This document shows, one piece after another, positions 26,160 through 40,303 of a DNA stretch of 64,000 bases. Source of the stretch: Veillonellales bacterium (lineage in GTDB: Bacteria; Bacillota; Negativicutes; JAAYSF01); NCBI GenBank assembly GCA_039680175.1, contig JBDKTO010000041.1, forward strand, positions 1-64,000. The letters run 5' to 3'. A model generated the notes under the pieces. The model saw nothing but the letters and a program-made list of their open reading frames with translations. It was not told the origin of the DNA and did not search any database. Position 1 is the stretch's first letter. Each line of letters opens with the position of its first letter. The position numbers and the translations under genes were made by a program.

Positions 26160-27338
26160 TTAATTTTTCCTTTCAACAATCATGGCTACGCCTTGGCCGC
26201 CGCCGATGCAAAGGGTAACTAACCCGGTTTCTTTATTCAGGTTTTTCATAGCATGCAGGAGAGTGGTAAGAATCTTGGTGCCGGTGGCCGCAACCGGATG
26301 CCCCAGTGCAATCGCTCCACCGTAGATGTTGACCTTACTTCTGTCCAGCTTTAATTCCCGGTCACAGGCAAGGGCCTGGCCGGCGAAGGCTTCATTGAGT
26401 TCAATGAGATCGATATCTTTTAATTCCATCCCGGCTTTTTTTAACGCAGCCGGAACAGCTACCGCCGGCCCTAGTCCCATCTGTTTCGGGTCTAACGCAA
26501 TGAAAGAGTAGGATTTAATGATCGCCATTGGCTGAATTCCCAGCTGGGCTGCCTTTTCTTCCGACATGGCGACAACCGCAGAAGCAGCATCGGATAAAGC
26601 ACAACTATTTCCCGCTGTTACTGTATCCCCTTTGCTAAATACCGGTTTTAATTTTGCTAATCCTTCCAAGGAAGTTTCCTTGTGCACTTCATCGGTAGCA
26701 AAAACCGTGATTCCTTTTCTCCCTTTAACTTCGATAGGAACGATTTCTTCTTTGAAAACTCCGCGTGTAACCGCTTCTTTTGTTTTTAATTGAGAAGCGA
26801 GCGCAAATTCGTCCTGTTCGCGACGGGAAATGTCGTATTTTTGATTGAGCAGTTCACACGTATCTCCCATAAACATTTCGGCTAAAGGGCACAAAAATCC
26901 GTCGGCATGCAGCACATCTTCCACGGACTTTTTGCCCATTCGATAGCCCCAGCGTGCTCCCGGCAGAATGTAGGGAACATTGCTGGGAGATTCAGTACCG
27001 CCGGCAACGACGATATCCGTTTCTCCCGCCCCGATGCTTAAAGCGGCAAGCTGCAAGGCTCTCAAGCTGGAGCCGCAGCGAATATTGATGGTAAACGCGG
27101 GTACGGTTACCGGCAGCCCGCTGTTTACGGCAGCGATTCTTGCCGGGTTTGCCCCGACCCCGGCCTGCCAGCCATTGCCGAAGATGACTTGGTCAACCAG
27201 TTCCCCTTCCAACTTGGCCCGTTTTACAGCTTCCTTTATTACAGCTGCACCAAGTTCAGGTGCGGTGACGCTTTTTAAAGAGCCGCCAAATTTTCCGCCG
27301 GCAGTTCTGACTGCACTGGCGATAACAACTTTTCGCAT
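26160..27338 (-). CDS. Acetyl-CoA C-acetyltransferase (thiolase II family)
   Basis: 392 residues, the standard thiolase length. The acylated cysteine is C88 (INIRCGSSLRAL); the C-terminal motifs are GGAIALGHPVAATG with the catalytic histidine and LCIGGGQG with the second cysteine. The usual GHPIGASG is GHPVAATG here, a mild variation. It would cleave a 3-oxoacyl-CoA such as acetoacetyl-CoA with CoA to give acetyl-CoA, or run in reverse. It is the last gene of a minus-strand set with a CoA-transferase and an aminotransferase, which favours the degradative direction. A hairpin without a T run (27365-27398) lies between it and the transferase gene. GGGAGGT precedes the ATG. Confidence 0.93.
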   Translation of the reverse strand: MRKVVIASAVRTAGGKFGGSLKSVTAPELGAAVIKEAVKRAKLEGELVDQVIFGNGWQAGVGANPARIAAVNSGLPVTVPAFTINIRCGSSLRALQLAALSIGAGETDIVVAGGTESPSNVPYILPGARWGYRMGKKSVEDVLHADGFLCPLAEMFMGDTCELLNQKYDISRREQDEFALASQLKTKEAVTRGVFKEEIVPIEVKGRKGITVFATDEVHKETSLEGLAKLKPVFSKGDTVTAGNSCALSDAASAVVAMSEEKAAQLGIQPMAIIKSYSFIALDPKQMGLGPAVAVPAALKKAGMELKDIDLIELNEAFAGQALACDRELKLDRSKVNIYGGAIALGHPVAATGTKILTTLLHAMKNLNKETGLVTLCIGGGQGVAMIVERKN

Positions 27339-27437
27339 AATATTTTACCTCCCAATATTATAATGGGCTGAGCTTGCCGGCTGCAGATAAACCGGCAGCT
27401 CCTGGCAATTTATGCGGGGAGTTGCCGGACAAAGTGC

Positions 27438-28211
27438 TTATTTTAAAACCATTCTCTCAGGATCGCATTCCGTTCGTAAAATATGAAGTTCATGTTCAGT
27501 CGGAGGTACAGCTTCCTTGGCCCGGGTCAGATCAATTGAAAAAGTAATTTCGGCTTGAATCATTTCAGGCGTAAACCCGGGATAATAGCTGTGAAGGTAC
27601 ATTTTTTTAGTGATATCATCAAAGCGGAAAGAAGCCTTATTGGTTATCACCATTGAAGGACCGCCGCCCGGCAGACCGGCTTTTTCCCTGGCACCGGGGC
27701 CATCTAGGAAGCCGGGGGTCGTTAAGTAGTCAAGCTTCTCCACAAACTTTCTTTTGCCTAAATCCATGAAAGCGATGGATTGACCGACTACGCTTCCGAT
27801 GTCGGCTGCTCCGCCGCTGCCGCTGAAACGCACAGTGGGATGAAAATAATCGCCGATTACCGTGGAATTTAAGTTTCCATAAATATCAATTTGCGCCGCT
27901 CCCAAAATAGACAGAGTTTTTTTGCCGGTAATCTGATTTTGTATTTGGTTAAAGGAATCCATTAAGCTGCCTAACCGTACTGTCCGGTACATCACTCTGG
28001 GATCGGATAAGCAAATCGGCATTTTATTAAATTCCACATCGGTAGCGCCTGTTTCAAAGAAGATGACCACAGCCGGCGAAGTAATCTTTTTTGTCGCTAT
28101 CGCCGCAAGGGTGGCTAATCCCGTACCGCACAATATGACATCGACGCCGGCATTTTTAATTTCTCTGGCGGCAATAATCGCCATCATTTCCTGACCTGTA
28201 TATGCTGTCAA
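27438..28211 (-). CDS. CoA-transferase subunit B (GctB-like)
   Basis: 257 residues, close to glutaconate CoA-transferase subunit B. The candidate catalytic glutamate is E53 in FFETGATD; the glycine-rich stretches GSGGAADIG and GLPGGGPSMVITN fit the family fold. With subunit A it should move CoA between short acids and acyl-CoA donors; related pairs act on glutaconate, 3-oxoadipate or acetoacetate, and sequence alone does not settle which. Retention of the glutamate argues against a hydrolase of the IpdAB kind. It starts at TTG with AAAGGAGGT upstream, 5 bp after subunit A, so the two are translationally linked. Confidence 0.88.
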   Translation of the reverse strand: MTAYTGQEMMAIIAAREIKNAGVDVILCGTGLATLAAIATKKITSPAVVIFFETGATDVEFNKMPICLSDPRVMYRTVRLGSLMDSFNQIQNQITGKKTLSILGAAQIDIYGNLNSTVIGDYFHPTVRFSGSGGAADIGSVVGQSIAFMDLGKRKFVEKLDYLTTPGFLDGPGAREKAGLPGGGPSMVITNKASFRFDDITKKMYLHSYYPGFTPEMIQAEITFSIDLTRAKEAVPPTEHELHILRTECDPERMVLK

Positions 28212-28216
28212 TTTGA

Positions 28217-29194
28217 TTACCTCCTTTCTAAATTCCGTTTGTATCCATATTCCGGATCTGCTTTAAGGTTTTCCAGTCTCTCAGTACCGATTAGCGAGAG
28301 AAATTCTTCACGATTTTTAACGCCAAAAACATATTTATCAAGATATTTCGGCCATTCTGCATCATCTTTGGCAACTGCGGGATACAGGGTTTTTAGAAAC
28401 CAGGGATCGTAATCATAGTACTGGGGTACAGCTGTAGGATAAGCACCCCAGGGTACTTCCACCACTGCACTGACCTGGAAACTGACGAGTTGATTTCTCT
28501 CGGGTTGCTTTCTTAGTTCATCCGTGTCCACAATTTCCTCACAAGTTACGATAACATTCTTGGCGGCTTTAGCCTGTTCAATATCGGCGTAGACTAGACC
28601 CATGAGCAGGACATTTCCGGCTTTATCGGCTTTTTGTGCATGAATGATGGTAACATCCGGCTGTAAGGCCGGTACTAACACCAGCCGATCCACCTTATCA
28701 GTCTCATTAAAGGGATTATCCATAACAATCAGTTTTTTTGCCGGCAGACAGGGGTTCTTTCGCCGGTATTCTTCGTCAAAACCCCATTTGTTGATGATAT
28801 CCGTTCCTAATGTAGCATAAGTCTGTAAAAAGGGCAGCCCCATCATGCCGGCTGTAAACCGTAAGACCATTTGATAGTTTGAATAGTCTTCAACTTTAAT
28901 TTTTCCCTGCTCGACGCTTTTGCGGAAACGGAAGCAAGTCGGTGCGAACCGTCCGTTGCCGCAGTAAGCGATTTCAACACTCTCCACGCAGCAGCCGCCA
29001 ATCAGCTCATCCACTGCCTGACCGTTGGAACAGGCAGCGAGATGAAGTCCCTTAACTTTGTGCCGGATCATTTCATGCACAGCCGCCATGGGACATTGTG
29101 TGGCAGAAAATCCCCCCAGCGAAATCAGAGCTCCGTCATGGACAAATTTTTCAATTGCGTCCGTTAACGTCATTATCTTGCTTGTATCATTCAT
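28217..29194 (-). CDS. CoA-transferase subunit A (GctA-like)
   Basis: 325 residues, matching glutaconate CoA-transferase subunit A in length. It has the N-terminal glycine loop GALISLGGFSATQ, the CoA-site-like GNGRFAPTC region and the C-terminal AAKNVIVTCEEIVDT and VPWGAYPTA segments typical of this class I transferase. It forms a hetero-oligomer with the adjacent subunit B. Between an aminotransferase and a thiolase, its probable job is to activate the oxo acid left by transamination as a CoA thioester. The substrate is not determined. Confidence 0.88.
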   Translation of the reverse strand: MNDTSKIMTLTDAIEKFVHDGALISLGGFSATQCPMAAVHEMIRHKVKGLHLAACSNGQAVDELIGGCCVESVEIAYCGNGRFAPTCFRFRKSVEQGKIKVEDYSNYQMVLRFTAGMMGLPFLQTYATLGTDIINKWGFDEEYRRKNPCLPAKKLIVMDNPFNETDKVDRLVLVPALQPDVTIIHAQKADKAGNVLLMGLVYADIEQAKAAKNVIVTCEEIVDTDELRKQPERNQLVSFQVSAVVEVPWGAYPTAVPQYYDYDPWFLKTLYPAVAKDDAEWPKYLDKYVFGVKNREEFLSLIGTERLENLKADPEYGYKRNLERR

Positions 29195-29220
29195 GTTTTC
29201 ACCCTTTCTTTTCCGTATCG

Positions 29221-30561
29221 CTATTTTTTTGAACCCAGTTCCCGGCCAAAATCAGTGAAACCGGCCACCAGCCCTTCGACGATTTCGTCCGCCTGATCCC
29301 GGGTGAGAATAAGCGGTGGTGTCAACAGGAAGTGATCGCCATTTACTCCGTCGGCGCCGCCGGTGCCGGGATACACAACAATGCCGTGGTTAAGGCAGGC
29401 CTGAGTAATTTTTTCCGCAACGCCGGCGTTTGCCGGGAAGGGTTCTTTTGTTTTTTTGTCACGGACGAATTCCACTCCCTGCATCAGGCCGATGCCCCGT
29501 ACATCACCGACAAACCAGAAGGGAAGCAGCTTTTCTTTCAATTGTCCCAGCAAATATTTGCCGATGGTTCGGGAATTTTCCACCAGCTTATCTTCAATAA
29601 TCGTGTTTACTACTGCCACCGAGACAGCTGCCGACAACGGGTTGCCGCCGTAAGTGTGACCGTGGGTGAACACACCGGAACCCTCCATGAATGCAGCAAA
29701 GATTTCGTCTTTTGCAATTACAGCGCCAAGGGGCGAATAACCGGAGCTCATACCCTTGGCGGCGCAAATCATATCGGGAACCACACCGAAGTCTTCGATA
29801 GCGAACAAGGATCCCGTCCGCCCAAAGCCGGCCATAACCTCATCGTCAATCAGCAGGATGTCATAGTGATCGCAGATCTGGCGGATGATTTTGAAATATT
29901 CCGGGTGAGGCACCAATGCGCCGCAGGCGGCACCGACAACCGGTTCAGCGATAAAGGCGGTGACGTATTCCGCACCTTCTATTTTCAAAATCCGTTCCAA
30001 ATCATGGGCGCAGGCTGCGCCGCAGGTTTCCGGCTGTTTGCCAAAGGGACAGCGGTAGCAATAACAGGGAGCTGCTTTCGGGAAGTTAAGCAGTAAGGGA
30101 GTATACTTTTTACGGCGTTTATCGCCGGTCATGGATAAAGAACCGATGGTATTACCGTGATAGGATTTCCAGCGGGAAATAATCCGGTATTTATTTGTTT
30201 TGTTGCCGTCTCTTTCCAGAAAATAACCCCGGGCCATTTTCAAGGCTGCTTCGGTAGCTTCCGAACCGCCGGAAACAAGATATAGTTTATTGAGTGAGCC
30301 AGGGGTCAGCCCGGCGATTAAATCCGCTAATTCCCGGATCGGTTTGGAAGTCCAGCGGGATAAGTGACTAAAGGCGATTTTCTTAGCCTGCTCGGTCATG
30401 GCCTGAATCACTTTAGGATTGGCATGACCAATATTCGATACGGCTGCTCCGGCACAGGCATCCAGATATTTTCTGCCATTTGAATCGTACAAATAGACGC
30501 CTTCGCCATGATCGATTTCCACAAGATCTTTATGCAGATTACGATAGAACACGTTATCCAA
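29221..30561 (-). CDS. Class III PLP-dependent aminotransferase
   Basis: 446 residues. Class III features: SGGSEATEAALKMAR phosphate-binding loop, the aspartate in LLIDDEVMAGFGRTG, the PLP lysine in CAAKGMSSGYSPLGAV, and HGHTYGGNPLSAA. A cysteine-rich insert (CYCYRCPFGKQPETCGAAC) is shared with one branch of clostridial and archaeal enzymes. The family includes omega-amino acid, beta-alanine and 2,2-dialkylglycine enzymes. With the downstream CoA-transferase and thiolase, a beta- or omega-amino acid substrate that yields a 3-oxo acid is plausible. It starts at TTG with AAAGGAG upstream and is the first gene of its operon, just after a dyad that may be the RpiR operator. Confidence 0.9.
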   Translation of the reverse strand: MDNVFYRNLHKDLVEIDHGEGVYLYDSNGRKYLDACAGAAVSNIGHANPKVIQAMTEQAKKIAFSHLSRWTSKPIRELADLIAGLTPGSLNKLYLVSGGSEATEAALKMARGYFLERDGNKTNKYRIISRWKSYHGNTIGSLSMTGDKRRKKYTPLLLNFPKAAPCYCYRCPFGKQPETCGAACAHDLERILKIEGAEYVTAFIAEPVVGAACGALVPHPEYFKIIRQICDHYDILLIDDEVMAGFGRTGSLFAIEDFGVVPDMICAAKGMSSGYSPLGAVIAKDEIFAAFMEGSGVFTHGHTYGGNPLSAAVSVAVVNTIIEDKLVENSRTIGKYLLGQLKEKLLPFWFVGDVRGIGLMQGVEFVRDKKTKEPFPANAGVAEKITQACLNHGIVVYPGTGGADGVNGDHFLLTPPLILTRDQADEIVEGLVAGFTDFGRELGSKK

Positions 30562-30591
30562 GAAAGACCACTCCTTTTGAATTAAATTTTT

Positions 30592-30618
30592 ATTTCATTA
30601 TATACTATAAAATGAAAT
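30592..30618. promoter_or_regulatory. Candidate RpiR operator and promoter core
   Basis: The dyad ATTTCAT-N13-ATGAAAT lies 31 bp before the aminotransferase start and overlaps TATA-rich -10-like sequence. RpiR-type regulators commonly bind GAAA/TTTC inverted repeats, and an RpiR-type gene is directly upstream. Assignment is by position and symmetry only. Confidence 0.45.
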
Positions 30619-30689
30619 ATTTCCATCATTTTTTTATGGAGAAAGGTCTACGTTTTTGTCTGGCTGCGTTATCTCTTACGTGTCAAAAA

Positions 30690-31532
30690 TTATTCTTCAT
30701 GGTAAACCGCATGCTGTTTCCAAAGTGCTTCCAGTTCCGAAAGCCGTTGACGGGTCTGCTGCGGATTTGTTTCGCTTACCGCAACGATAAGGGCATTCAT
30801 CAGGGATAAAGGAGCCGCAAGGGAGTCAATAAAATAGGCCATGTCCCGGTGGGCTAACAGTACCGTATCACCGTGCCTGACCAGTGGCGAGGTGTTGGTG
30901 TCGGTAATTACCAGTGTGCGGGCTCCCCGTTCCTTGGCAAACTGTAACCCATCCACGGTTAACTTCGTATAACGGGCGAAAGAAATTCCGATCACTAAGT
31001 CTTCCGGGCCGGCGTCGACTAACTCATCGACAAGCTTAATGGGGTTGCTGACCAGGGTGCAGTTTTTAAGGAGCATTTGAAGATAGTAATGAAGAAACGT
31101 ACCGAGTGCGGCTGCGCTGCGGAAACTGACAATATAAATTTTACGGGCATCGGCAATACAGGTTACTGCTTGTTGAAACCCGGCCATGTCCAGTTCTTCT
31201 ACTGTTCGGCGGATATTGATCATATCCCGGTCCATTACATCTTTTACCGGGTTTTCCCGGGGAGACTGCAACGATAATTGTAAGCGATCAACCGTAGTGA
31301 TCCGGTTTCTCACCATTTTACTCATGGCTTTAATCATATCAGGATAGCCATTATACCCCAGAGCTGTCGCAAATCGGGTAACCGTCGCTTCACTGACGCC
31401 CACATCTTTCGCCAAAGCTTTGGCCGTTTGAAACACAACTTTGTCGTAATTTTTAGATAAATACGTGGCCAGTTTTTTATTTTTAGGACTCATCTCATAA
31501 AAATTTTCCTGGATCCTTTTGAGAAATGACAC
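30690..31532 (-). CDS. MurR/RpiR-family transcriptional regulator
   Basis: 280 residues. The N-terminal helix-turn-helix (ALAKDVGVSEATVTRFATALGYNGY, ~38-62) is followed from ~residue 110 by a SIS fold (KIYIVSFRSAAALGTFLHYYL, VIGISFARYTK, LVITDTNTSPLVRHGD). RpiR proteins sense phosphosugars or other small metabolites through the SIS domain. It reads in the same direction as the aminotransferase-CoA-transferase-thiolase genes 128 bp downstream and is the likely regulator of that set, so its ligand may be an intermediate of that pathway. It starts at GTG; GGGAGG lies 11-12 nt upstream, slightly far. Confidence 0.92.
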   Translation of the reverse strand: MSFLKRIQENFYEMSPKNKKLATYLSKNYDKVVFQTAKALAKDVGVSEATVTRFATALGYNGYPDMIKAMSKMVRNRITTVDRLQLSLQSPRENPVKDVMDRDMINIRRTVEELDMAGFQQAVTCIADARKIYIVSFRSAAALGTFLHYYLQMLLKNCTLVSNPIKLVDELVDAGPEDLVIGISFARYTKLTVDGLQFAKERGARTLVITDTNTSPLVRHGDTVLLAHRDMAYFIDSLAAPLSLMNALIVAVSETNPQQTRQRLSELEALWKQHAVYHEE

Positions 31533-31860: not shown

Positions 31861-33552
31861 ATGACGGAAAGTATAGTGAAAGGACCATGGGGGATCATCG
31901 TATCCCCGGATATTTTGCAGTCAGCTATCCGCTCCTGGGGTCCTAAGCCTTTCTTTTTTGATGTTAGAGCCGCCTATCTTACGGGAGGTGCTCAAAACCG
32001 CAGTACACTCGAGGAAATCTGCACTTATTTTGAGACAAGGATTTTTAGTGATATAGGGGAATTCTGCAACAGTATTGAAACAGGATTTGTTTTAAACTTA
32101 GATACCTCGAACCTGGAATTGAGGAAATCTCTCCGGCAGCTGCAATCAAAAAATATAATCGTTTTAGACGGAAGCTTGGGTAAGTTAGTATGGAACTTTA
32201 TTGTCCAATTAGAAAAACAAACGTTACAACGGGAAATATTTTTTCAAGCGCTAAATTCTACGGTAGAGGGAATACAAATTGCGAATGCTCAGGGTTTGGA
32301 AATTTTTATCAACGATTCGCTGCTAAAAATGATAGACTTGAAACTGGAAGATCGTCTGGGCAAAAGTGTTTTTGAAGTTTCACCGGATGGAGGCATGGCA
32401 CGTGTATTGGAACAAAAAGTTCCGGTGAAAAATATTCGCAATCATCCACAAGGTACAGATGTGGAATTGATCAGTAATGCGGGGCCGATTTATATAAACG
32501 GCAAGTTTTCCGGAGCGGTTACGGTAGCGTACGATATTACCGAGTTAAGCCGATTAAGTAAGGAGCTGGAGGCAAACAAGCAGGCGGTGGCATTTCTTGA
32601 TAAAAAGGTAGGACATCTGGCTTCGGCAAAATATACCTTTGAAGATATTATAGGGAACAGTCAGCAAATACGAGCTGTGATTCAGCTTGCCCGTAAAGCT
32701 GCGGCCAGCGATCTGACGGTACTTATTCTGGGGGAAAGCGGTACTGGTAAGGAAATTTTTGCTCATGCTATTCATGACTCCAGTGTCCGAAGATCCAGGC
32801 CCTTTATTCCAGTGAACTGTGCCGCCATTCCCGAACAGTTGCTGGAAAGCGAATTTTTTGGCTATGAAAAAGGTGCGTTTACTTCTGCCACAGCCCGTAA
32901 GCTGGGATTTTTTGATTTGGCCAATACAGGTACATTGTTTTTGGATGAAATCGGTGACATGAATCTGAACTTGCAATCCAAGCTGTTACGGGTGCTGCAA
33001 GATAAAGAGTATATACGGGTTGGCGGAACGAAATCAGTGAGAGTGGATGTGCGTATTATTGCGGCCACCAATCGTGATTTGGTATCATTAGTGCACGAAA
33101 AAAAATTCCGTGAAGACTTGTTTTATCGGCTGAACGTCATCAACCTTACTATTCCGCCTTTACGGGAGAGAATTGCCGATTTGAAAAGCATAGCCGACTA
33201 TTTGATCCGCAGAATTGGGGCAAGAGTGGGAACCCGTATTCAGGGAATAAGCCAGGAGGCGCTGGACGCAATGGCCCCGTATCCCTGGCCCGGGAACATC
33301 AGGGAGCTGGAAAATGTTTTGGAAAGGGCCGTTTTTCTCTGTCAGGGAAATGTTTTAAAGCTGGAAGACGTTCATTTGCCCCAGATCTATACGGAAAAAT
33401 CCCGGGAAGGTGACAACGAAAAAGAAGCAATTACCAGGTATTTACAAACCTATGGTTATTCGGTAATCGGCAAGAAGGAAGTCGCCAGAAGGTTAAATAT
33501 GTCTTTAGCAACGCTGTATAATAAAATTAAGCTATATAAATTAAAAAAATAA
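31861..33552 (+). CDS. Sigma-54-dependent activator with PAS domain
   Basis: 563 residues. An N-terminal region (~1-125) of no recognised family is followed by a PAS-like domain (~120-225, ALNSTVEGIQIANAQG), a short coil, a sigma-54 AAA+ domain (~255-490) with Walker A GESGTGKE, Walker B GTLFLDEIGD and the arginine-containing FREDLFYRLNVI, and a C-terminal Fis-type helix-turn-helix (KKEVARRLNMSLATLYNKIK). There is no receiver, so it should answer a small ligand rather than a kinase. The sigma-54-contacting loop reads GAFTSA instead of GAFTGA. The next unit downstream has a good sigma-54 promoter and is its expected target. Confidence 0.93.
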   Translation: MTESIVKGPWGIIVSPDILQSAIRSWGPKPFFFDVRAAYLTGGAQNRSTLEEICTYFETRIFSDIGEFCNSIETGFVLNLDTSNLELRKSLRQLQSKNIIVLDGSLGKLVWNFIVQLEKQTLQREIFFQALNSTVEGIQIANAQGLEIFINDSLLKMIDLKLEDRLGKSVFEVSPDGGMARVLEQKVPVKNIRNHPQGTDVELISNAGPIYINGKFSGAVTVAYDITELSRLSKELEANKQAVAFLDKKVGHLASAKYTFEDIIGNSQQIRAVIQLARKAAASDLTVLILGESGTGKEIFAHAIHDSSVRRSRPFIPVNCAAIPEQLLESEFFGYEKGAFTSATARKLGFFDLANTGTLFLDEIGDMNLNLQSKLLRVLQDKEYIRVGGTKSVRVDVRIIAATNRDLVSLVHEKKFREDLFYRLNVINLTIPPLRERIADLKSIADYLIRRIGARVGTRIQGISQEALDAMAPYPWPGNIRELENVLERAVFLCQGNVLKLEDVHLPQIYTEKSREGDNEKEAITRYLQTYGYSVIGKKEVARRLNMSLATLYNKIKLYKLKK

Positions 33553-33780: not shown

Positions 33781-33796
33781 TGGCATGAATTTTGCA
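33781..33796 (+). promoter_or_regulatory. Sigma-54 (-24/-12) promoter of the symporter unit
   Basis: TGGCATGAATTTTGCA matches TGGCACG-N4-TTGCA with one mismatch and the required spacing (GG at 33782, GC at 33794). Transcription should start near 33807. It lies between a sigma-54 activator gene and the symporter gene, so the regulator-target link is strong. No clear upstream activator repeat was found in 33560-33780. Confidence 0.85.
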
Positions 33797-33864
33797 TGTA
33801 TATTAATTAGCCAATCAAATCCGGCTGTATTTATCTAAAAAAATATATGTTTAAGTAAGCGATG

Positions 33865-33908
33865 AAGCTGCGGTATTGTGTATAACTACACAATACCGCA
33901 GCTTTTTT
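33865..33908 (+). terminator. Strong leader terminator/attenuator before the symporter gene
   Basis: AAGCTGCGGTATTGTGTA pairs perfectly over 18 bp with its complement across a 4-nt loop and is followed by six T residues. It lies about 58 nt after the predicted sigma-54 start and 155 nt before the symporter ATG, so most transcripts would stop unless the hairpin is overcome. The upstream AAGTAAGCGATGAAGCT is shared with the leader at 31773-31789. Confidence 0.75.
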
Positions 33909-34062
33909 ACATAAATAAGGCATAAGGCGTTCAGACAGACCCGGCAGGCTTCGTGCATGAGGAGGTGTGGCGACAGGTGGTGTGTATTAGAAAGGGCATA
34001 TTTGCAGGAAGCCGGCGTATAGACAGTAAGTAGCGAGAGAAAGAATGAGAGGAGTGAGTGGT

Positions 34063-35523
34063 ATGACGGTAACTGAGGTTGGTTCAATTGCCTTGTGGAT
34101 TTTTGCTGTTTTAATTCCGTTACAGTTAATTATAGGGGGGATAGCGGCGCGTAAAAGCAGTCAAAGTGCCAGCCATTATTTTATTAGTGGCAAGCAACTG
34201 CCGTTTTTACTGATATTTTTTGCGGATTTTGCTACCGTGATGGGAGTCGGAAATTTCATTGGTTATGCCGGAAAAGGTTATGAGATTGGGCTTAATCAGT
34301 TTTGGATGCTGGCGGGTGAGCAAGGCAGCAAAGTTATTTTCGCATTGTTTCTTGCTGGAATGATAGGTCGATACGCCTATACCACTTTCAATGAGTTCTT
34401 GGAAAAAGAAATGTTTCATGATAAATGGCTGCGTGCGCTGGGGGGGATTATGATGACCATACCGATGATTTGCTGGACCGGCGGGCAGGCAATCGGGATA
34501 GGCTCATTGCTTTCAGTAGTCATGGGAATCGATCCGGTATCCGGTATCTGGGTAGCCTCGCTTACAACAATTTTATACACAGTTATGGGAGGAATGTGGG
34601 CCATTGCCTGGACTGACTTGCTACAGGGTCTGATTCGCATCGTCGTGGGCGCGATTTTCTTCGTAGTTGTCTATCTTGGCGTGGATGGTGTCGGTGGAAT
34701 CAAAACAGCGGTTACTGCCGTAAAGCCGGAGATGTGGTCCATGACGACAATTGGGTTTGGTGCCGCGATTTCGTTATTTTTAACGCCATTATGTGGGCAA
34801 TTTACCTTTCAGGCTTGGTGGCAGAGATGTTTTTCGGCAAAAGATGCCAAAGCGGCGCAAAGAGGCTTTTTGTGGACAGCCTTTTTCGCAGTTCTGATGT
34901 GTTCTGCGAGTATTTTCGTGGGGATGGCCGCGTATACCATTAATCCTAATTTGCCGAAGGCGGACATGGCATTTAGCTGGATGCTCAACTCTTGGCTGGA
35001 TCCGGTATTGGCAGCATTACTGGTTGTTACCATTATCGGCGCAGATATGACTGTATCAGCAGGGCTGCTTAATTCCGGAGTGACATTGCTATTAATGGAT
35101 GTAATTAGACCCTTTTTCAAACCCAATTCCACTGATGCCGAATTGGTTAAAATGGGAAGGTGGTTTACCTTCATTCTTGGCGTTGGCGCTGTGGGAGTGG
35201 CCTTTTCCTTTCCGTCAGTACTTTCCGCTGCCCTGTTTGGTTTGGCAGTGACCGGTGGTGGCTTGTTTATGCCACTTGTTCTGGGACTGCTGTTAAGGAA
35301 TAAAAACGGTGTTACCTATATTACCAAGAGCGCTGCCATGGCATCCCTCTTCCTGGGCGGAGGGACTGCGGCAGTATTTCAATACGTACCATCGCTAACG
35401 AAGATGTTTGGCGGCGGTATAGTTCCAGGGGTATGTTTGTCAGCTATTATTACGATCGGGGTTAGCTATTTTGAGCACTCCCTTAGTAATAGTAAAGTGC
35501 CGGAGCATGAAACAGTGAAGTAA
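34063..35523 (+). CDS. Sodium:solute symporter (SSS family)
   Basis: 486 residues from the ATG at 34063, which has AGGAG 8 nt upstream; an in-frame ATG at 34045 lacks one. About 13 hydrophobic segments are visible. Family motifs include the early ADFATVMGVGNFIGYAGKGYE region and TVMGGMWAIAWTDLLQG. It should import an organic solute with sodium. As the first gene of a sigma-54 unit with an aminotransferase, a D-2-hydroxyacid dehydrogenase and an amino-acid oxidase, its substrate is probably an amino acid or N-substituted amino acid. Confidence 0.9.
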   Translation: MTVTEVGSIALWIFAVLIPLQLIIGGIAARKSSQSASHYFISGKQLPFLLIFFADFATVMGVGNFIGYAGKGYEIGLNQFWMLAGEQGSKVIFALFLAGMIGRYAYTTFNEFLEKEMFHDKWLRALGGIMMTIPMICWTGGQAIGIGSLLSVVMGIDPVSGIWVASLTTILYTVMGGMWAIAWTDLLQGLIRIVVGAIFFVVVYLGVDGVGGIKTAVTAVKPEMWSMTTIGFGAAISLFLTPLCGQFTFQAWWQRCFSAKDAKAAQRGFLWTAFFAVLMCSASIFVGMAAYTINPNLPKADMAFSWMLNSWLDPVLAALLVVTIIGADMTVSAGLLNSGVTLLLMDVIRPFFKPNSTDAELVKMGRWFTFILGVGAVGVAFSFPSVLSAALFGLAVTGGGLFMPLVLGLLLRNKNGVTYITKSAAMASLFLGGGTAAVFQYVPSLTKMFGGGIVPGVCLSAIITIGVSYFEHSLSNSKVPEHETVK

Positions 35524-35625
35524 ATAATACAGTTCGCGTCTATGGAGGTTTGGCCAAGGTGTTGCTGGTGAATTCTGGTGGCAGAAAATAGGCGTACTTA
35601 TTAGGAATTTAAGGGAGGCATCTTT

Positions 35626-36822
35626 GTGGAAAATGTACCTGTTATAGCAAGCAGGGTGGCTCAGATTCCCTTTGCGGGAATTCGCAAGGTATTTGAAAAA
35701 GCGAATAAAATGGAAGCCCAGGGACAAAAAGTAATTCACTTTGAAATTGGCCGCCCTGATTTTGATACACCGGAGCACATCAAAGCGGCGGCAAAAAGAG
35801 CGCTTGACAAGGGGTTTGTCCACTATGCTCCCAATAGTGGAATACCTCTATTGCGCGAAGCGCTGGCGATGCGGCTGCAAGCCGACAAGAAGCTACGTTA
35901 TCATCCGGATAAAGAAATCATGGTGACGGCAGGCGGTCAGGAGGCTTTGTATTTAAGTTTTATGAGTATTTTAAATGAGGGTGACGAGGTGATTCTTCCT
36001 GACCCCTGCTTTGGCCCATTCCCTTTGGCAGTACGACTGGCCGGCGGTGTTCCAGTCAAGATCCCGCTTCAACCGGATAAAAATTTTGCTTATGATTTCT
36101 CAGCCGTTAAAAAATCTCTTTCGGCGAAAACAAAAGCAATTATCGTAAATTCTCCTCACAATCCCACAGGGAGCGTGTTAACAGCGGAACAGTTAAAAGC
36201 AGTGGCTGATTTTGCAGCTGATAATGGTTTATGGCTGATATGCGACGATGCGTATGATCATATGGTCTACGACGGATGTTGTGTATCTCCTGCCGGATTT
36301 CCCGGAATGCGGGACCGAACGATTCTTTGCGGCTCATTATCGAAAACATATGCGATGACTGGTTGGCGTGTCGGGTATATAGCCGCTGTAGAACCGGTAA
36401 TTAGCGCCGCTGTTCGGCTCCAGCAGAATGTGATGCTGTCATTGTGCAGTTTTGCTCAGTATGGGGCGGCGGCGGGACTTACCGGACCGCAAGACTGTGT
36501 GGAGACCATGATGCAGGAATTTGCCCGGAGACGGCGACTCGTACTGGAGATGATTCCACAAATTCCCGGAATTGAATTAGCAGGAATTCCCCAAGGTGCT
36601 TTTTATGTTTTTCCCCGGATTACTCTATCCGGCATTACTTCCGCCCAGGTAGCTGAATATCTGCTTGACAATGCGGGAACTGCAGTAGTGGATGGCTCGG
36701 TATTCGGGGAAAGCGGGAATGGTCACTTTAGATTATCGTATGCCGCGTCCTATGAAGATTGTCGCGATGGATTGGAACGCATTGCCGAAGCAATGCGTGT
36801 TCTTACCAAAAAACAGAATTAA
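35626..36822 (+). CDS. Class I/II PLP-dependent aminotransferase
   Basis: 398 residues, the normal length. Fold-type I markers: FEIGRPDFDTPEHI at the N-terminus, TAGGQEALYL, NSPHNPTG, the aspartate in LICDDAYDHMVYDG, the PLP lysine in LCGSLSKTYAMTGWRVGY and the C-terminal FRLSYA arginine. Related to aspartate/alanine-type enzymes; the amino donor is not determined. It starts at GTG with GGGAGG 7 nt upstream. In this unit it could interconvert the amino and oxo acids produced by the FAD oxidase, with the neighbouring dehydrogenase removing the oxo acid. Confidence 0.93.
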   Translation: MENVPVIASRVAQIPFAGIRKVFEKANKMEAQGQKVIHFEIGRPDFDTPEHIKAAAKRALDKGFVHYAPNSGIPLLREALAMRLQADKKLRYHPDKEIMVTAGGQEALYLSFMSILNEGDEVILPDPCFGPFPLAVRLAGGVPVKIPLQPDKNFAYDFSAVKKSLSAKTKAIIVNSPHNPTGSVLTAEQLKAVADFAADNGLWLICDDAYDHMVYDGCCVSPAGFPGMRDRTILCGSLSKTYAMTGWRVGYIAAVEPVISAAVRLQQNVMLSLCSFAQYGAAAGLTGPQDCVETMMQEFARRRRLVLEMIPQIPGIELAGIPQGAFYVFPRITLSGITSAQVAEYLLDNAGTAVVDGSVFGESGNGHFRLSYAASYEDCRDGLERIAEAMRVLTKKQN

Positions 36823-37001
36823 AGTGAGCTATATTTAAATTTATTGGAATGAATAATCAGTGAAGCTGGAATCTGACCTTATTCGATTTTTGAAAGTATC
36901 TTTACTTTTTGGGGATAAATGCAAAACGTTAGCTCAGCAGGAACTGAATCAAGCGCGGGCATATATGCCGATGATACTATGCGAAAAGCGGAAGGGATTG
37001 G

Positions 37002-37988
37002 ATGAATTTGAAAACAGTATTAATTACGTCAAAAGAATTCGGCAGTCAAATCGATCAGGAACATAAAAATAGAGTGGAACAATATTTTATTCAAAACGGC
37101 TGGCATATCTTTTGGAACTCGGCGAAGACTGCTATGAGTGCGGGCGATATTATTAAACTGAATAGCCGGCATTCTCTGGATGCGATTCTGGTATATTCCA
37201 GTTCTGATGAAATCAACCGGGAGGTTTTCAAACATTGTACTAATTTGAAGGTTGTATCCCGACACGGCGTTGGTATTGAAAACATTGATACTGCCGCTGC
37301 CCAAGCGGCAGGGGTGCAAGTTAAAACTACGGATGATATGCCAGGATATGAAACGGTAGCCGACTTGACTTTTGCCCTGATGCTGTCGTTGGCGCGTAAA
37401 ATTCCGATGATTGACGCCAAATTACGGGACAATCGATGGTATCGCCCGATCAGCAGTGATGTTTGGGGGAAAACGCTGGGTATATTCGGATTGGGACGTA
37501 TTGGGAAAGCGGTTGCTAAACGGGCAAGCGGCTTTGATATGAATATCTTAGTAAATACCCGCCATCCGGATAAGGATTTTGTGGCTGAACATGGAATTAC
37601 GGTATGTTCCCGGGAGCAATTGTTAGCGCAATCAGACTTTATCAGTCTGCATTGTACGCTCAATGAAGAGACTAAACATATGATTAGTGCAAAAGAGTTT
37701 GCGTTGATGAAACCTACAGCCTATTTCATTAATTCCGCCAGAGCGGGCTTAGTCAATCAACGGGATTTGCTCACAGTGCTAAAGGACAGAAAAATAGCCG
37801 GAGCGGCTATTGATGTTTTTGAGAAAGAACCGGTGAGTAACGACCCTATTATTCAAACAGGATTGGATAATATTGTAGTTACGTCCCATGTAGGTTCTTA
37901 CACTTGGGATTCCCTGAAACGCATGGATTTTCTTGTTGCGGAGAATATCGTTGAAACAGTTGCCGGGTTCAGAAGTACGGCAGTGTGA
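37002..37988 (+). CDS. D-2-hydroxyacid dehydrogenase family protein
   Basis: 328 residues. NAD-binding motif GIFGLGRIGKAVAKRA (~165-180), the substrate arginine in INSARAGLVNQ, the glutamate in DVFEKEPV and the catalytic histidine in VVTSHVGSYTWDS give the complete D-isomer 2-hydroxyacid dehydrogenase active site. It lacks the ACT domain of long SerA proteins and resembles short phosphoglycerate- or hydroxypyruvate-type enzymes. It would reduce a 2-oxo acid to the D-hydroxy acid or oxidise it, with NAD(H). Start ATG after GGAAGGGAT. The 180 bp before it carries no convincing gene. Confidence 0.92.
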   Translation: MNLKTVLITSKEFGSQIDQEHKNRVEQYFIQNGWHIFWNSAKTAMSAGDIIKLNSRHSLDAILVYSSSDEINREVFKHCTNLKVVSRHGVGIENIDTAAAQAAGVQVKTTDDMPGYETVADLTFALMLSLARKIPMIDAKLRDNRWYRPISSDVWGKTLGIFGLGRIGKAVAKRASGFDMNILVNTRHPDKDFVAEHGITVCSREQLLAQSDFISLHCTLNEETKHMISAKEFALMKPTAYFINSARAGLVNQRDLLTVLKDRKIAGAAIDVFEKEPVSNDPIIQTGLDNIVVTSHVGSYTWDSLKRMDFLVAENIVETVAGFRSTAV

Positions 37989-38075
37989 AAAGATTTCTCT
38001 TCACTGTGTTGATATAGAAAATGAATGCCTATTTAGCTATAGACGGATAAGTTTAGAGTAAAGGGGGAACGAACG

Positions 38076-38426
38076 GTGAAAAAAGGGGGACTCGAGGTGG
38101 ATAAGTCAACAATCGTTTGCCGCTGCGAGGAAATTACTGTAGCAGATATCGAGAATGCAGTTGCCCAGGGAGCGCAAACGTTTGATGATGTCAAAAGACT
38201 GACACGGAGCGGCATGGGGCTCTGCCAGGGTAAGACTTGCCGAACTGTAATATCCGAGCTGATTGCACAAATCAGGGGAGAATCGGTGGCGGCTATTCCT
38301 GTTCCACATATGAGAATGCCGCTTCGCGCTATTCCCATCGGAATTTTAGCCGATCACTTTTCCGGAGGTTCTGCTATGCAATCGTTGCTGGCAGAATCAA
38401 AACCGGATGAAGGGCAGGAATCATAA
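38076..38426 (+). CDS. Bfd-like [2Fe-2S] protein, oxidase partner
   Basis: 116 residues. Cysteines C15, C17, C50 and C55 in the pattern CxC-x32-CxxxxC (VCRCEE ... GLCQGKTC) are the BFD-like [2Fe-2S] signature. The C-terminal half is a linker ending in IPHMRMPLR-like sequence found in small subunits that accompany DAO-type oxidases, such as opine oxidase and hydrogen cyanide synthase. It overlaps the next gene by 20 bp, so they are probably translated together and form a complex in which this cluster accepts electrons from the flavin. A second GTG at 38097 also has a ribosome site, so the start may be seven codons later. Confidence 0.88.
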   Translation: MKKGGLEVDKSTIVCRCEEITVADIENAVAQGAQTFDDVKRLTRSGMGLCQGKTCRTVISELIAQIRGESVAAIPVPHMRMPLRAIPIGILADHFSGGSAMQSLLAESKPDEGQES

Positions 38427-39501
38427 ATTGCGTAGAGATTATGAAACGATTATCGTTGGCGGCGGCGTGATTGGCAGCGGAATTGCCTATCATCTGTCTG
38501 AAGTTCAAACCGAGGGGATATTAGTTATCGATAAAGAGTTTCCTTTAAACGGGACATCGGGATCTACACAAGGCTGGGTCTGGGTGCAAAGTAAGACTCC
38601 CTCCTGGTATGGGGAACTTTCTATGTTTAGTGCCGAACTGTATGAATATCTGCCCAGAAAAATTGGCGATATTGAATATACGCGTACCGGCGGTATCGAT
38701 CCCTTTTTTACAGCAGAAGAGAGGGATCGAGCTTTGCGATTGGCTGAATCCCAATCCCAGGCTGGAATCGAGATGCATGTTTTGGATCGGGATGAAACAT
38801 TGGCACTAGAGCCTGCCTTGTCACCGAAAATTTTTGGCTCTATTCACAGTAATCTTGATGGGACTGTGAACCCCATGCGCTTAGTTGAACAGTACATGCG
38901 GGCGGCTAAAAAAAATGGTGTCATCTATGAGTACGCTAATCCCGTCATCAATATTGAGAAAAAGCAGGGGGAATTTATTGTAACGGCAAAGGCCGGGACA
39001 TTTTCCTGCAAGAAATTAGTCTTAAGTGCCGGTGTGTGGACCTGCGAGCTGGGTAAGCTGCTGGGAATCAATATTCCGGTTTATCCCGTGCGGGGACAAA
39101 TCATTATTACGGAACCGCTGGCGCCTTTGCTCAAGCATACGCTGTCATCAATGCGGCAAACCTGTAATGGTGAGATATTAATTGGCTATACCAAAGAAAC
39201 CGCCGGATTTGACCGGAGGACAACATTGGATGTAATCGAAGAGACCGCCAATTTTGGAGCTAAAATCGTACCGGCTTTGGCTGAAGCAAAAATGGTCCGT
39301 ACTTTTGCCGGCTTGCGTGTTATGCCGCAAGATGAATTCCCGATTATTGGCGGCGTTCCGGGTATCGAAAACCTTTTTATTGCAGCCTTGCATAGCGGGT
39401 TTACTTTATCGCCATTGGTCGGTACTATTTTAACAGAGCTTATTACGGAGGGAGAGACCTCCATACCGATAGACCGGTGCAATATAGCTCGCTTTGCTTA
39501 A
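38407..39501 (+). CDS. DAO-family FAD-dependent amine/amino acid oxidoreductase
   Basis: 364 residues. The N-terminal dinucleotide motif IIVGGGVIGSGIAYHL binds FAD; GSTQGWVWVQ and the C-terminal RTFAGLRVMPQDEFPIIGGVPG and ALHSGFTLSP segments are typical of the glycine oxidase/sarcosine oxidase/opine oxidase beta-subunit group. It would oxidise a secondary or primary amino acid to an imine, which hydrolyses to an oxo acid and an amine. The overlapping Bfd-like protein suggests a dehydrogenase passing electrons to a [2Fe-2S] centre rather than oxygen, which suits an anaerobe. No alpha subunit of the NAD-linked disulfide-oxidoreductase type is present. A TTG at 38428 is an alternative start. Confidence 0.9.
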   Translation: MKGRNHKLRRDYETIIVGGGVIGSGIAYHLSEVQTEGILVIDKEFPLNGTSGSTQGWVWVQSKTPSWYGELSMFSAELYEYLPRKIGDIEYTRTGGIDPFFTAEERDRALRLAESQSQAGIEMHVLDRDETLALEPALSPKIFGSIHSNLDGTVNPMRLVEQYMRAAKKNGVIYEYANPVINIEKKQGEFIVTAKAGTFSCKKLVLSAGVWTCELGKLLGINIPVYPVRGQIIITEPLAPLLKHTLSSMRQTCNGEILIGYTKETAGFDRRTTLDVIEETANFGAKIVPALAEAKMVRTFAGLRVMPQDEFPIIGGVPGIENLFIAALHSGFTLSPLVGTILTELITEGETSIPIDRCNIARFA

Positions 39502-39611: not shown

Positions 39612-39655
39612 AAAGCCGGAACATTCTCAGGCTCCTGAGAATGTTCCGGCTTTTT
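39612..39655 (+). terminator. Terminator ending the sigma-54 unit
   Basis: AAAGCCGGAACATTCTCAGG pairs with its near-perfect complement across CTCC and is followed by TTTTT; the left flank also supplies a short A run for the convergent acetyltransferase gene. It closes the unit 110 bp after the last stop. Confidence 0.85.
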
Positions 39656-39670
39656 ATAACAGGAATAATC

Positions 39671-40303
39671 TTAAAGACGCAGCTTGTCTATTTCTCCATT
39701 CATGATCTGCGGCAGGAAATGCTGTATCTTTTCAACAGGCCAATCCCACCACTCGATCTGCTGCAGTTTCCGAATTGCTCCTTCATCAAAACGCTTTCTG
39801 ATTTCTTTCGCGGGAATTCCGCCGACCACGGTATACGGCGGAACATCCTTTGTCACGACCGCTCTCGTCCCGATGATCGCGCCGTTACCGATATTAACGC
39901 CGGACAGGATTACCGCTTCATAACCGATCCAGACGTCGTTGCCGATGACGATATCGCCTTTGTTGTCCCACGCGGAGGCGACGTCCTTTTTATCCAGCTC
40001 CCATTCTTCAAAGAAAATTGGGAACGGGTAGGTGGAAAGCGATTTCAGCGTGTGATTGGCACTTGTAAAAAGGAATTTTGCGCCGCAGGCAATAGAACAA
40101 AACTTCCCGATCCTCAATTTGTCTTTATTGACGGGATAGTGATACAGTACGTTGTTCTTCTCAAACTGTGTTGGATCTGAAACGAAATCATTGTACATCG
40201 TATAATCGTCGACAATGATGTTGGGATCTGTAATCACGTTTTTCAGGTATACGGTGTCAAAATCATTGGTCCGCGGATATATTTTATCAGCCGGAATAGC
40301 CAT
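39671..40303 (-). CDS. Vat-type hexapeptide-repeat acetyltransferase
   Basis: 210 residues, the length of streptogramin A acetyltransferases of the Vat group and related CatB enzymes. It shares their landmarks: [18 protein letters not shown], the active-site histidine in [59 protein letters not shown] and the C-terminal WWDWP. The left-handed beta-helix forms a trimer that moves acetyl from acetyl-CoA to a hydroxyl. Chromosomal members often have other natural acceptors, so resistance is not assured. It is a single gene bounded by a terminator on one side and an empty spacer on the other. GGAGG precedes the ATG. Confidence 0.88.

Follow-up and report, generated by a model that had tools for sequence, protein, structure and literature searches.

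A σ54-linked operon in a Veillonellales genome encodes the putative catalytic half of a split flavin amino-acid dehydrogenase and may depend on a paralogous operon for its partner subunits

Flavin-containing opine dehydrogenases of the OdhABC/OoxBA type are heteromeric enzymes of the opine/D-hydroxyproline/L-proline dehydrogenase superfamily. Passages of PMC4575208 describe them as having dehydrogenase rather than oxidase activity and as not using NAD(P)+, report experiments on a Bradyrhizobium system (OdhB1-C-A-B2) in which two β subunits share one α/γ, and also mention a stand-alone δ subunit (S2 Table legend). The archaeal dye-linked L-proline dehydrogenases are αβγδ complexes (heterotetramers), according to part of PMC8704557. 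Here we describe a unit at about 33781-39501 of a 64 kb stretch (the window) from the anaerobic-type Veillonellales bacterium GCA_039680175.1, contig JBDKTO010000041.1, of which no published account was found in the literature library searched. A first-pass annotation had listed a symporter, an aminotransferase, a D-2-hydroxyacid dehydrogenase, a Bfd-like protein and a DAO-family oxidase, and profile searches recovered all five together with an upstream σ54 activator gene. We tentatively read the last two genes as the catalytic (β-δ) half of a split dehydrogenase, the other half of which would be supplied by a paralogous operon elsewhere in the same genome.

These last two genes overlap by 20 nt. 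The first (38097-38426, + strand) encodes a BFD-like [2Fe-2S] protein (PF04324, 53 bits; PF17806, SO_alpha_A3, 51 bits); its GTG start at 38097 agrees with relatives, GTG 38076 being an alternative. Because it carries the SO_alpha_A3 segment and matches the last ∼80 residues (C-terminus) of 1y56_A, the α subunit of Pyrococcus horikoshii L-proline dehydrogenase (E 6.7e-8), the BFD protein reads as the C-terminal end of an α subunit in free-standing, δ-like form. Its predicted structure has a pLDDT (predicted local distance difference test score) of 81, and cysteines C8, C10, C43 and C48 are invariant in an alignment of 16 sequences, which was made without L055, L060, L062, L065, L068, L071 and L072. 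The second gene (38407-39501, + strand; PF01266, 226 bits) encodes the DAO flavoprotein, a putative catalytic β-like subunit with a confident predicted structure (pLDDT 89.7). In its GxGxxG flavin adenine dinucleotide (FAD) motif, G18, G20 and G23 are invariant across 29 sequences.

Comparison with solved enzymes placed the pair within the superfamily, and the fold search does not tell glycine oxidase, sarcosine oxidase and proline dehydrogenase apart (VIA Z 44.4 for 4ysh, 43.3 for 3ad9 sarcosine oxidase β and 43.2 for 1y56_B proline dehydrogenase β). The window DAO resembles ThiO glycine oxidase in that 4ysh is its top match both among single solved sequences (132 bits) and among folds, but the DAO scores only 141.2 bits to TIGR02352 (cut-off 250.8) and, unlike ThiO, has an overlapping partner BFD gene. 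SoxAB is similar in the BFD and A3 domain of SoxA (PF17806) and in the β fold, but the window DAO reaches 89.1 bits to the SoxB model TIGR01373 (cut-off 529) and SoxA gave only a 33-bit fragment match. The P. horikoshii L-proline dehydrogenase (1y56) is matched both by the BFD-A3 protein, at the 1y56_A C-terminus, and by the β fold. In contrast to the class's other operons, which have a Δ1-pyrroline-5-carboxylate (P5C) dehydrogenase (e.g. L066), no P5C dehydrogenase was found among the window genes by profile scan of 26-40 kb.

The unit is unusual in what it lacks. No match to α or to the ferredoxin-like subunit Fer2_4 was found at E 1e-4 within 30-41 kb of the window, and no remnant of α, Fer2_4 or a racemase rose above chance between the window genes. 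By comparison, α and Fer2_4 matches lie beside BFD and DAO in 25/25 related loci, comprising L024 (a Bacillota metagenome-assembled genome), L025 (Oceanobacillus profundus), a locus on contig C96 of the window's own genome, and 12 plus 10 loci from two further samplings. The weakest α among them, in L147 and L148, still showed 22-23% identity (E ∼1e-12), and in L148 α and BFD lie within one frame. Among Oceanobacillus-family genomes, 15 of 159 gave a hit, and the narrower loci show α in all 16 places. In the plasmid clusters L106 and L108, two DAO genes flank a single α. Close relatives (E 1e-60) were confined to the genome itself (G000) in the sample of the window's phylum (398 genomes; 60 relatives), and to G448 in the class of that genome (82 genomes). 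The lack of α is therefore real and unusual for such an operon, but not for the cell: the first-pass annotation was right that α is missing from the window, whereas the genome holds one on C96.

A genome search found a second DAO gene on contig C96, 70% identical to the window DAO and bringing the genome total to two. It stands in the order asd, lysC, dapA, an Asp/Glu-racemase-family gene, SSF symporter, Fer2_4, α flavoprotein, BFD, DAO, EtfB, EtfA and membrane protein. The last three lie directly 3′ of DAO, and the membrane protein is NarI-like with 4Fe-4S and two CCG parts. The two operons are paralogous, with 75% identity between the BFD proteins and 69% between the symporters; the window DAO is further 69% identical to that of L024 and 58% to that of Oceanobacillus. 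Each DAO gene is paired with a BFD gene, and α is present in a single copy at E 1e-10. C96 as contamination is unlikely because tetranucleotide use is common to it and the window: the correlation between C96 (1-19 kb) and the window is 0.96, compared with 0.88 for the best of 17 foreign loci (assembly contamination is given as 4.33%). With positions 21-43 kb of the window, C96 and a further contig, C1, correlate at 0.92-0.96, and the 17 foreign loci at 0.61-0.88. The proposal that a missing α points to a special anaerobic electron route for this unit is not supported, since the genome's own paralogous operon encodes α and Fer2_4 as well as EtfBA and a membrane Fe-S oxidoreductase. Electrons probably do pass through electron-transferring flavoprotein (ETF) to quinone, but that route is part of the complete C96 operon.

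The explanation we favour, held with rather less than even confidence, is that the window unit is the β-δ half of a split flavin amino-acid dehydrogenase, a paralogue of the C96 enzyme, which uses C96 α and Fer2_4 in trans to oxidise a secondary or N-substituted amino acid. The symporter would import the substrate, and window β (DAO) and δ (BFD) would assemble with the single C96 α and with C96 Fer2_4. β would then take two electrons from the substrate, and hydrolysis of the resulting imine would give an amino acid or amine and a 2-oxo acid, products that the aminotransferase and hydroxyacid dehydrogenase might handle. EtfBA and then the membrane Fe-S oxidoreductase would carry the electrons on to quinone.

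Phylogeny and motifs bear on the kind of enzyme this is. In the larger tree (38 DAO proteins, with the partial duplicate L073_18667 left out), the window protein groups with those of C96 and L024 (support 100/97) within a clade of 16 (100/99), and a topology that unites this clade with the proline-dehydrogenase-type proteins of the class is disfavoured (p-AU, approximately unbiased test, 0.0185). A motif alignment of 48 proteins held 26 of the window's kind (16 by tree, 10 by profile score and motifs). The W[VI][QH]xK-type and HSGxTL segments are common to these and to the opine-type group including OoxB, and the proline type is without both; L146 and L109 vary in the former segment. The first-pass annotation had been reminded of opine oxidase and hydrogen cyanide synthase by the DAO and BFD genes, and this is borne out by their shared superfamily and by the two OoxB segments in the window DAO. 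An 'opine-like' identity is plausible, with the two trees in weak disagreement over it. The likeness to OdhABC/OoxBA has limits: the window operon is without α and Fer2_4, its BFD is a separate δ-like gene rather than the α C-terminus, and the window DAO is 28.5% identical to OoxB and 31.1% identical to the pTiS4 protein. One of the eight opine-type rows, encoded next to arginase on pTiC58, is taken for that reason to be NoxB. A proline dehydrogenase identity was considered less likely by the motifs and the larger tree, though the smaller tree weakly favoured it.

Several residues set the window DAO apart from its own kind. Of the 26 proteins of its kind, only that of the window has Gln61 (the remaining 25 have His, and 7/8 opine-type proteins have Gln), Gly56 (the remaining 25 have Ala, and 5/8 opine-type proteins have Gly) and Phe332 (the remaining 25 have Ile, Val or Met). 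Since these unique residues lie in segments that we take to line the flavin/substrate side in this superfamily, a changed pocket or substrate is likely, although unproven.

The regulation of the unit appears to involve σ54. A near-consensus -24/-12 promoter, TGGCATGAATTTTGCA, lies at 33781-33796 (+ strand), with an inferred start at ∼33807. By itself the bare -24/-12 pattern count is weak evidence (7 sites with no more than one mismatch in 64 kb, compared with a shuffle mean of 2.82 and matched by 2/100 shuffles), and it is the context that carries the case. TGGCATGAATTTTGCA is the best of 7 sites scored within 30.5-40.3 kb, and it is supported by an activator gene whose end lies 229 bp further upstream, by the presence of RpoN in the genome (443 bits, cut-off 277) and by the recurrence of this layout at C96 and L024. 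A site that is perfect under the score used, TGGCACGGATATTGCA, lies 98 bp before asd of the C96 operon, and a weaker one, TGGTATGTTTTTTGCA, lies before the operon of L024. The σ54-dependent activator (31861-33552, + strand; 563 aa, with AAA+ and Fis-type helix-turn-helix; PF00158, 241 bits) scored 442 bits to a PrdR-like profile (cut-off 795) and, over its last ∼440-450 aa, is 46% identical to the L024 activator and 45% to that of C96; both operons of the genome thus have a σ54 site and an activator. The window activator carries GAFTSA; the pattern picked up four more distinct activators, all of which have GAFTGA. According to part of PMC2941729, a Ser at this place in NorR gives activity without the signal but leaves the protein partly regulated.

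Between this promoter and the symporter, 137 bp before the symporter frame, lies a strong intrinsic terminator (33865-33908, + strand; an 18-bp perfect stem, TAAC loop and T-run), which the first-pass annotation did not mention. A simple terminator/promoter scan did not list 33865-33908, and it listed no σ70-type site between the terminator and the symporter. The leader (33807-34044) has a predicted folding energy of -70.9 kcal/mol (z -3.66), and no Rfam family, riboswitches included, matched at gathering score in the 21-64 kb scanned. A seven-codon ATG-TAA frame from 33862 overlaps the 5′ arm and loop of the terminator. Because the terminator intervenes, it is unproven that the promoter drives the operon: absent readthrough the σ54 site need not do so, and attenuation or a second, downstream promoter may be at work. 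The 'good -24/-12 promoter' of the first-pass annotation therefore stands as a near-consensus site with an activator and RpoN, while its claim that this site drives the operon is unproven.

A number of observations weigh against the trans-sharing reading. The assembly of window β-δ with C96 α is something that we infer, the terminator may silence the operon, and copy number was established for α only; two more distant relatives of the C96 membrane protein are also present in the genome. The best sequence and fold match of the DAO is a glycine oxidase. In the larger tree, the clade of 16 joins the eight plasmid-borne opine-type proteins, including OoxB, only weakly (76/19); the smaller tree (31 rows, two of them opine-type) placed the clade with proline dehydrogenases (82/68), and the program flagged long branches in both trees. 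Arg-X-Phe is found in all 26 window-kind rows (VRTF in the window), compared with Arg-X-Trp in 8/8 opine-type and 7/7 proline-type rows, and the former marks a separate subfamily. Passages of PMC4575208 link the Arg-X-Trp of β to flavin mononucleotide, and equating it with this position is our own placement. Finally, neofunctionalisation is not proven: among 131 columns that are otherwise invariant the window DAO deviates in 9, hardly more than C96 does (8 of 130; counted without L064_7991 and more distant rows).

Leads to the substrate come from relatives. SbnB/ornithine-cyclodeaminase-family genes, scoring 294-303 bits to the SbnB profile (cut-off 327), directly follow DAO in both L147 and L148 and in L146 precede the operon by ∼3 kb; this family includes sponge-type opine dehydrogenases (a passage of PMC4575208). 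L139 has a PotABCD/PhnSTUV-like transporter with a relative in the pTiS4 cluster (41% and 44% identical). The gene for malate synthase G lies 15 bp behind DAO in L140 (8041-10215), likewise in L142 (8473-10647), both in Oceanobacillus-order genomes, and suggests glyoxylate as a product; as the two DAOs are 98% identical, this was counted as one event. Among Oceanobacillus-family genomes, xsc occurs in 7/15 with DAO and 22/144 without (Fisher p 0.0075, uncorrected for kinship), and two of the 12 wide loci, L056 and L065, have it next to the operon. A taurine link (tauropine or N-methyltaurine) is a lead for those relatives only. An Asp/Glu-racemase-family gene precedes the symporter in C96 and L024 and lies nearby in L037.

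Together, these leads speak for an N-substituted amino acid that is cleaved oxidatively, and the main rival is the dehydrogenation of a primary amino acid, either glycine or a D-amino acid such as D-aspartate, with the C96 racemase supplying the D-form. We consider this rival unlikely, while giving it real weight. It would account for the glycine oxidases among the nearest solved sequences, for ThiO as the best NCBIfam match (141 bits, cut-off 251), for the racemase-family genes, for the malate synthase G behind DAO and for the glyoxylate-reductase-like window dehydrogenase. However, that ThiO score is far under the cut-off, the motifs and larger tree side with OoxB, no racemase gene is in the window, and N-carboxymethyl opines would yield glyoxylate too.

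It is also rather doubtful that the β-δ pair works without α and Fer2_4, with DAO reducing the BFD [2Fe-2S] cluster and the latter passing electrons directly to ETF, ferredoxin or another carrier, which is close to the idea of the first-pass annotation. The clean loss of both genes from the operon without remnants and the retained BFD-DAO overlap would fit such a pair, as would the β of D-hydroxyproline dehydrogenase (D-HypDH), which is catalytic by itself. Yet all 25 relatives keep α and Fer2_4, α is available in the genome, and Pseudomonas putida OdhB alone, and OdhBC without α, are almost inactive (for both enzymes, passages of PMC4575208).

Three more genes make up the upstream part of the operon. 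The symporter gene (SSF-family sodium:solute symporter; 34045-35523, + strand; PF00474, 107 bits) probably starts at ATG 34063, as the alignment to the C96 symporter begins at residue 7. It is followed by a class I/II aminotransferase of the aspartate-aminotransferase type (35626-36822, + strand; PF00155, 242 bits; nearest solved structures 1dju, 1gd9 and 1j32) and a D-2-hydroxyacid dehydrogenase of the glyoxylate-reductase/phosphoglycerate-dehydrogenase type (37002-37988, + strand; PF02826, 197 bits). The latter is equally close to glyoxylate reductase and phosphoglycerate dehydrogenase, its nearest structures (6bii, 1wwk and 2dbq) lying within 1 bit. In a search of 150 class genomes, 10 passed E 1e-60 (the window's own included). 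Six other genomes have a dehydrogenase 64-76% identical to that of the window, and in 6/6 the gene two places ahead of it encodes an aminotransferase that shares 71-78% identity with the window protein; the intervening gene is for a second, distantly related hydroxyacid dehydrogenase. No DAO, α or BFD match was found in those six stretches. A seventh locus, L138 (dehydrogenase 50% identical), is without such an aminotransferase. The DNA before the window dehydrogenase (36859-36900) is 86-91% identical over 43 bp in four of those genomes, perhaps representing a small reading frame that is broken in the window, and no protein match to a remnant of the second hydroxyacid dehydrogenase was found in the window gap.

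Judged from these sequences, the operon looks like a mosaic, in which a native aminotransferase-dehydrogenase module minus its middle gene sits where relatives have Fer2_4 and α. The suggestion that these two enzymes handle the DAO products is thereby weakened, and their role with those products is a guess, because they form a separate module that in six further class genomes stands without a DAO gene. A quite improbable reading is that the unit is decaying or silent, a hybrid in which a copy of the SSF-BFD-DAO segment lost α/Fer2_4 and gained this module, with the terminator cutting off the promoter. For it speak the terminator, the missing middle gene and the GAFTSA of the activator; against it stand an activator and five operon genes that are open frames of normal length, four conserved BFD cysteines, a confident DAO model and a NorR with Ser at the GAFTGA position that still activates (part of PMC2941729).

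The head of the C96 operon raises a further question. Its asd, lysC and dapA genes (L026 1416-4613) lie directly behind the perfect -24/-12 site and are supported by NCBIfam models (asd_B 449 bits, cut-off 324; aspartate kinase subfamily 308, cut-off 209; DapA 344, cut-off 206). Another asd-lysC-dapA set on contig C1 (L081 6028-9240), behind a gene read by eye as dapB, is 65%, 45% and 61% identical to that of C96, and the low value for C96 LysC goes with an altered C-terminal (ACT) region. As a long shot, both σ54 operons might belong to a single regulon. A cyclic or N-substituted amino acid would then be oxidised via ETF and the membrane oxidoreductase to quinone, and C96 asd-lysC-dapA would run in reverse: DapA or DAO would release aspartate semialdehyde, Asd would convert it to aspartyl phosphate and NADPH, and aspartokinase would yield ATP. 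The presence, position and duplication of these genes are observed; their reverse direction is pure conjecture.

Other features of the window lie outside the unit. A hairpin with a T-run resembling a terminator was seen by eye 3′ of the DAO gene (39612-39655, + strand) and is absent from the list of the simple scan. On the - strand, 39671-40303 encodes a hexapeptide-repeat acyltransferase, presumably similar to the streptogramin-type (Vat) acetyltransferases. Also on the - strand, profiles identified an RpiR regulator, a class III aminotransferase, two CoA-transferase subunits and a thiolase at 26160-31532, a set that looks like β-amino or 3-oxo acid catabolism. A single open frame of 7043 codons (2-21130, - strand) runs past the window edge and encodes a giant protein.

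If the trans-sharing reading is true, the genome would hold a natural subunit exchange between two separately regulated operons, in which one electron-transfer half serves two catalytic halves with different substrates, and would offer a direct test of how this superfamily acquires new substrates. The C96 operon is a concrete candidate for the oxygen-free working of such dehydrogenases, with ETF passing electrons to a membrane Fe-S oxidoreductase. The second, σ54-linked asd-lysC-dapA set begs explanation; if it does operate in reverse, an enzyme of the lysine pathway would be carrying out substrate-level phosphorylation.

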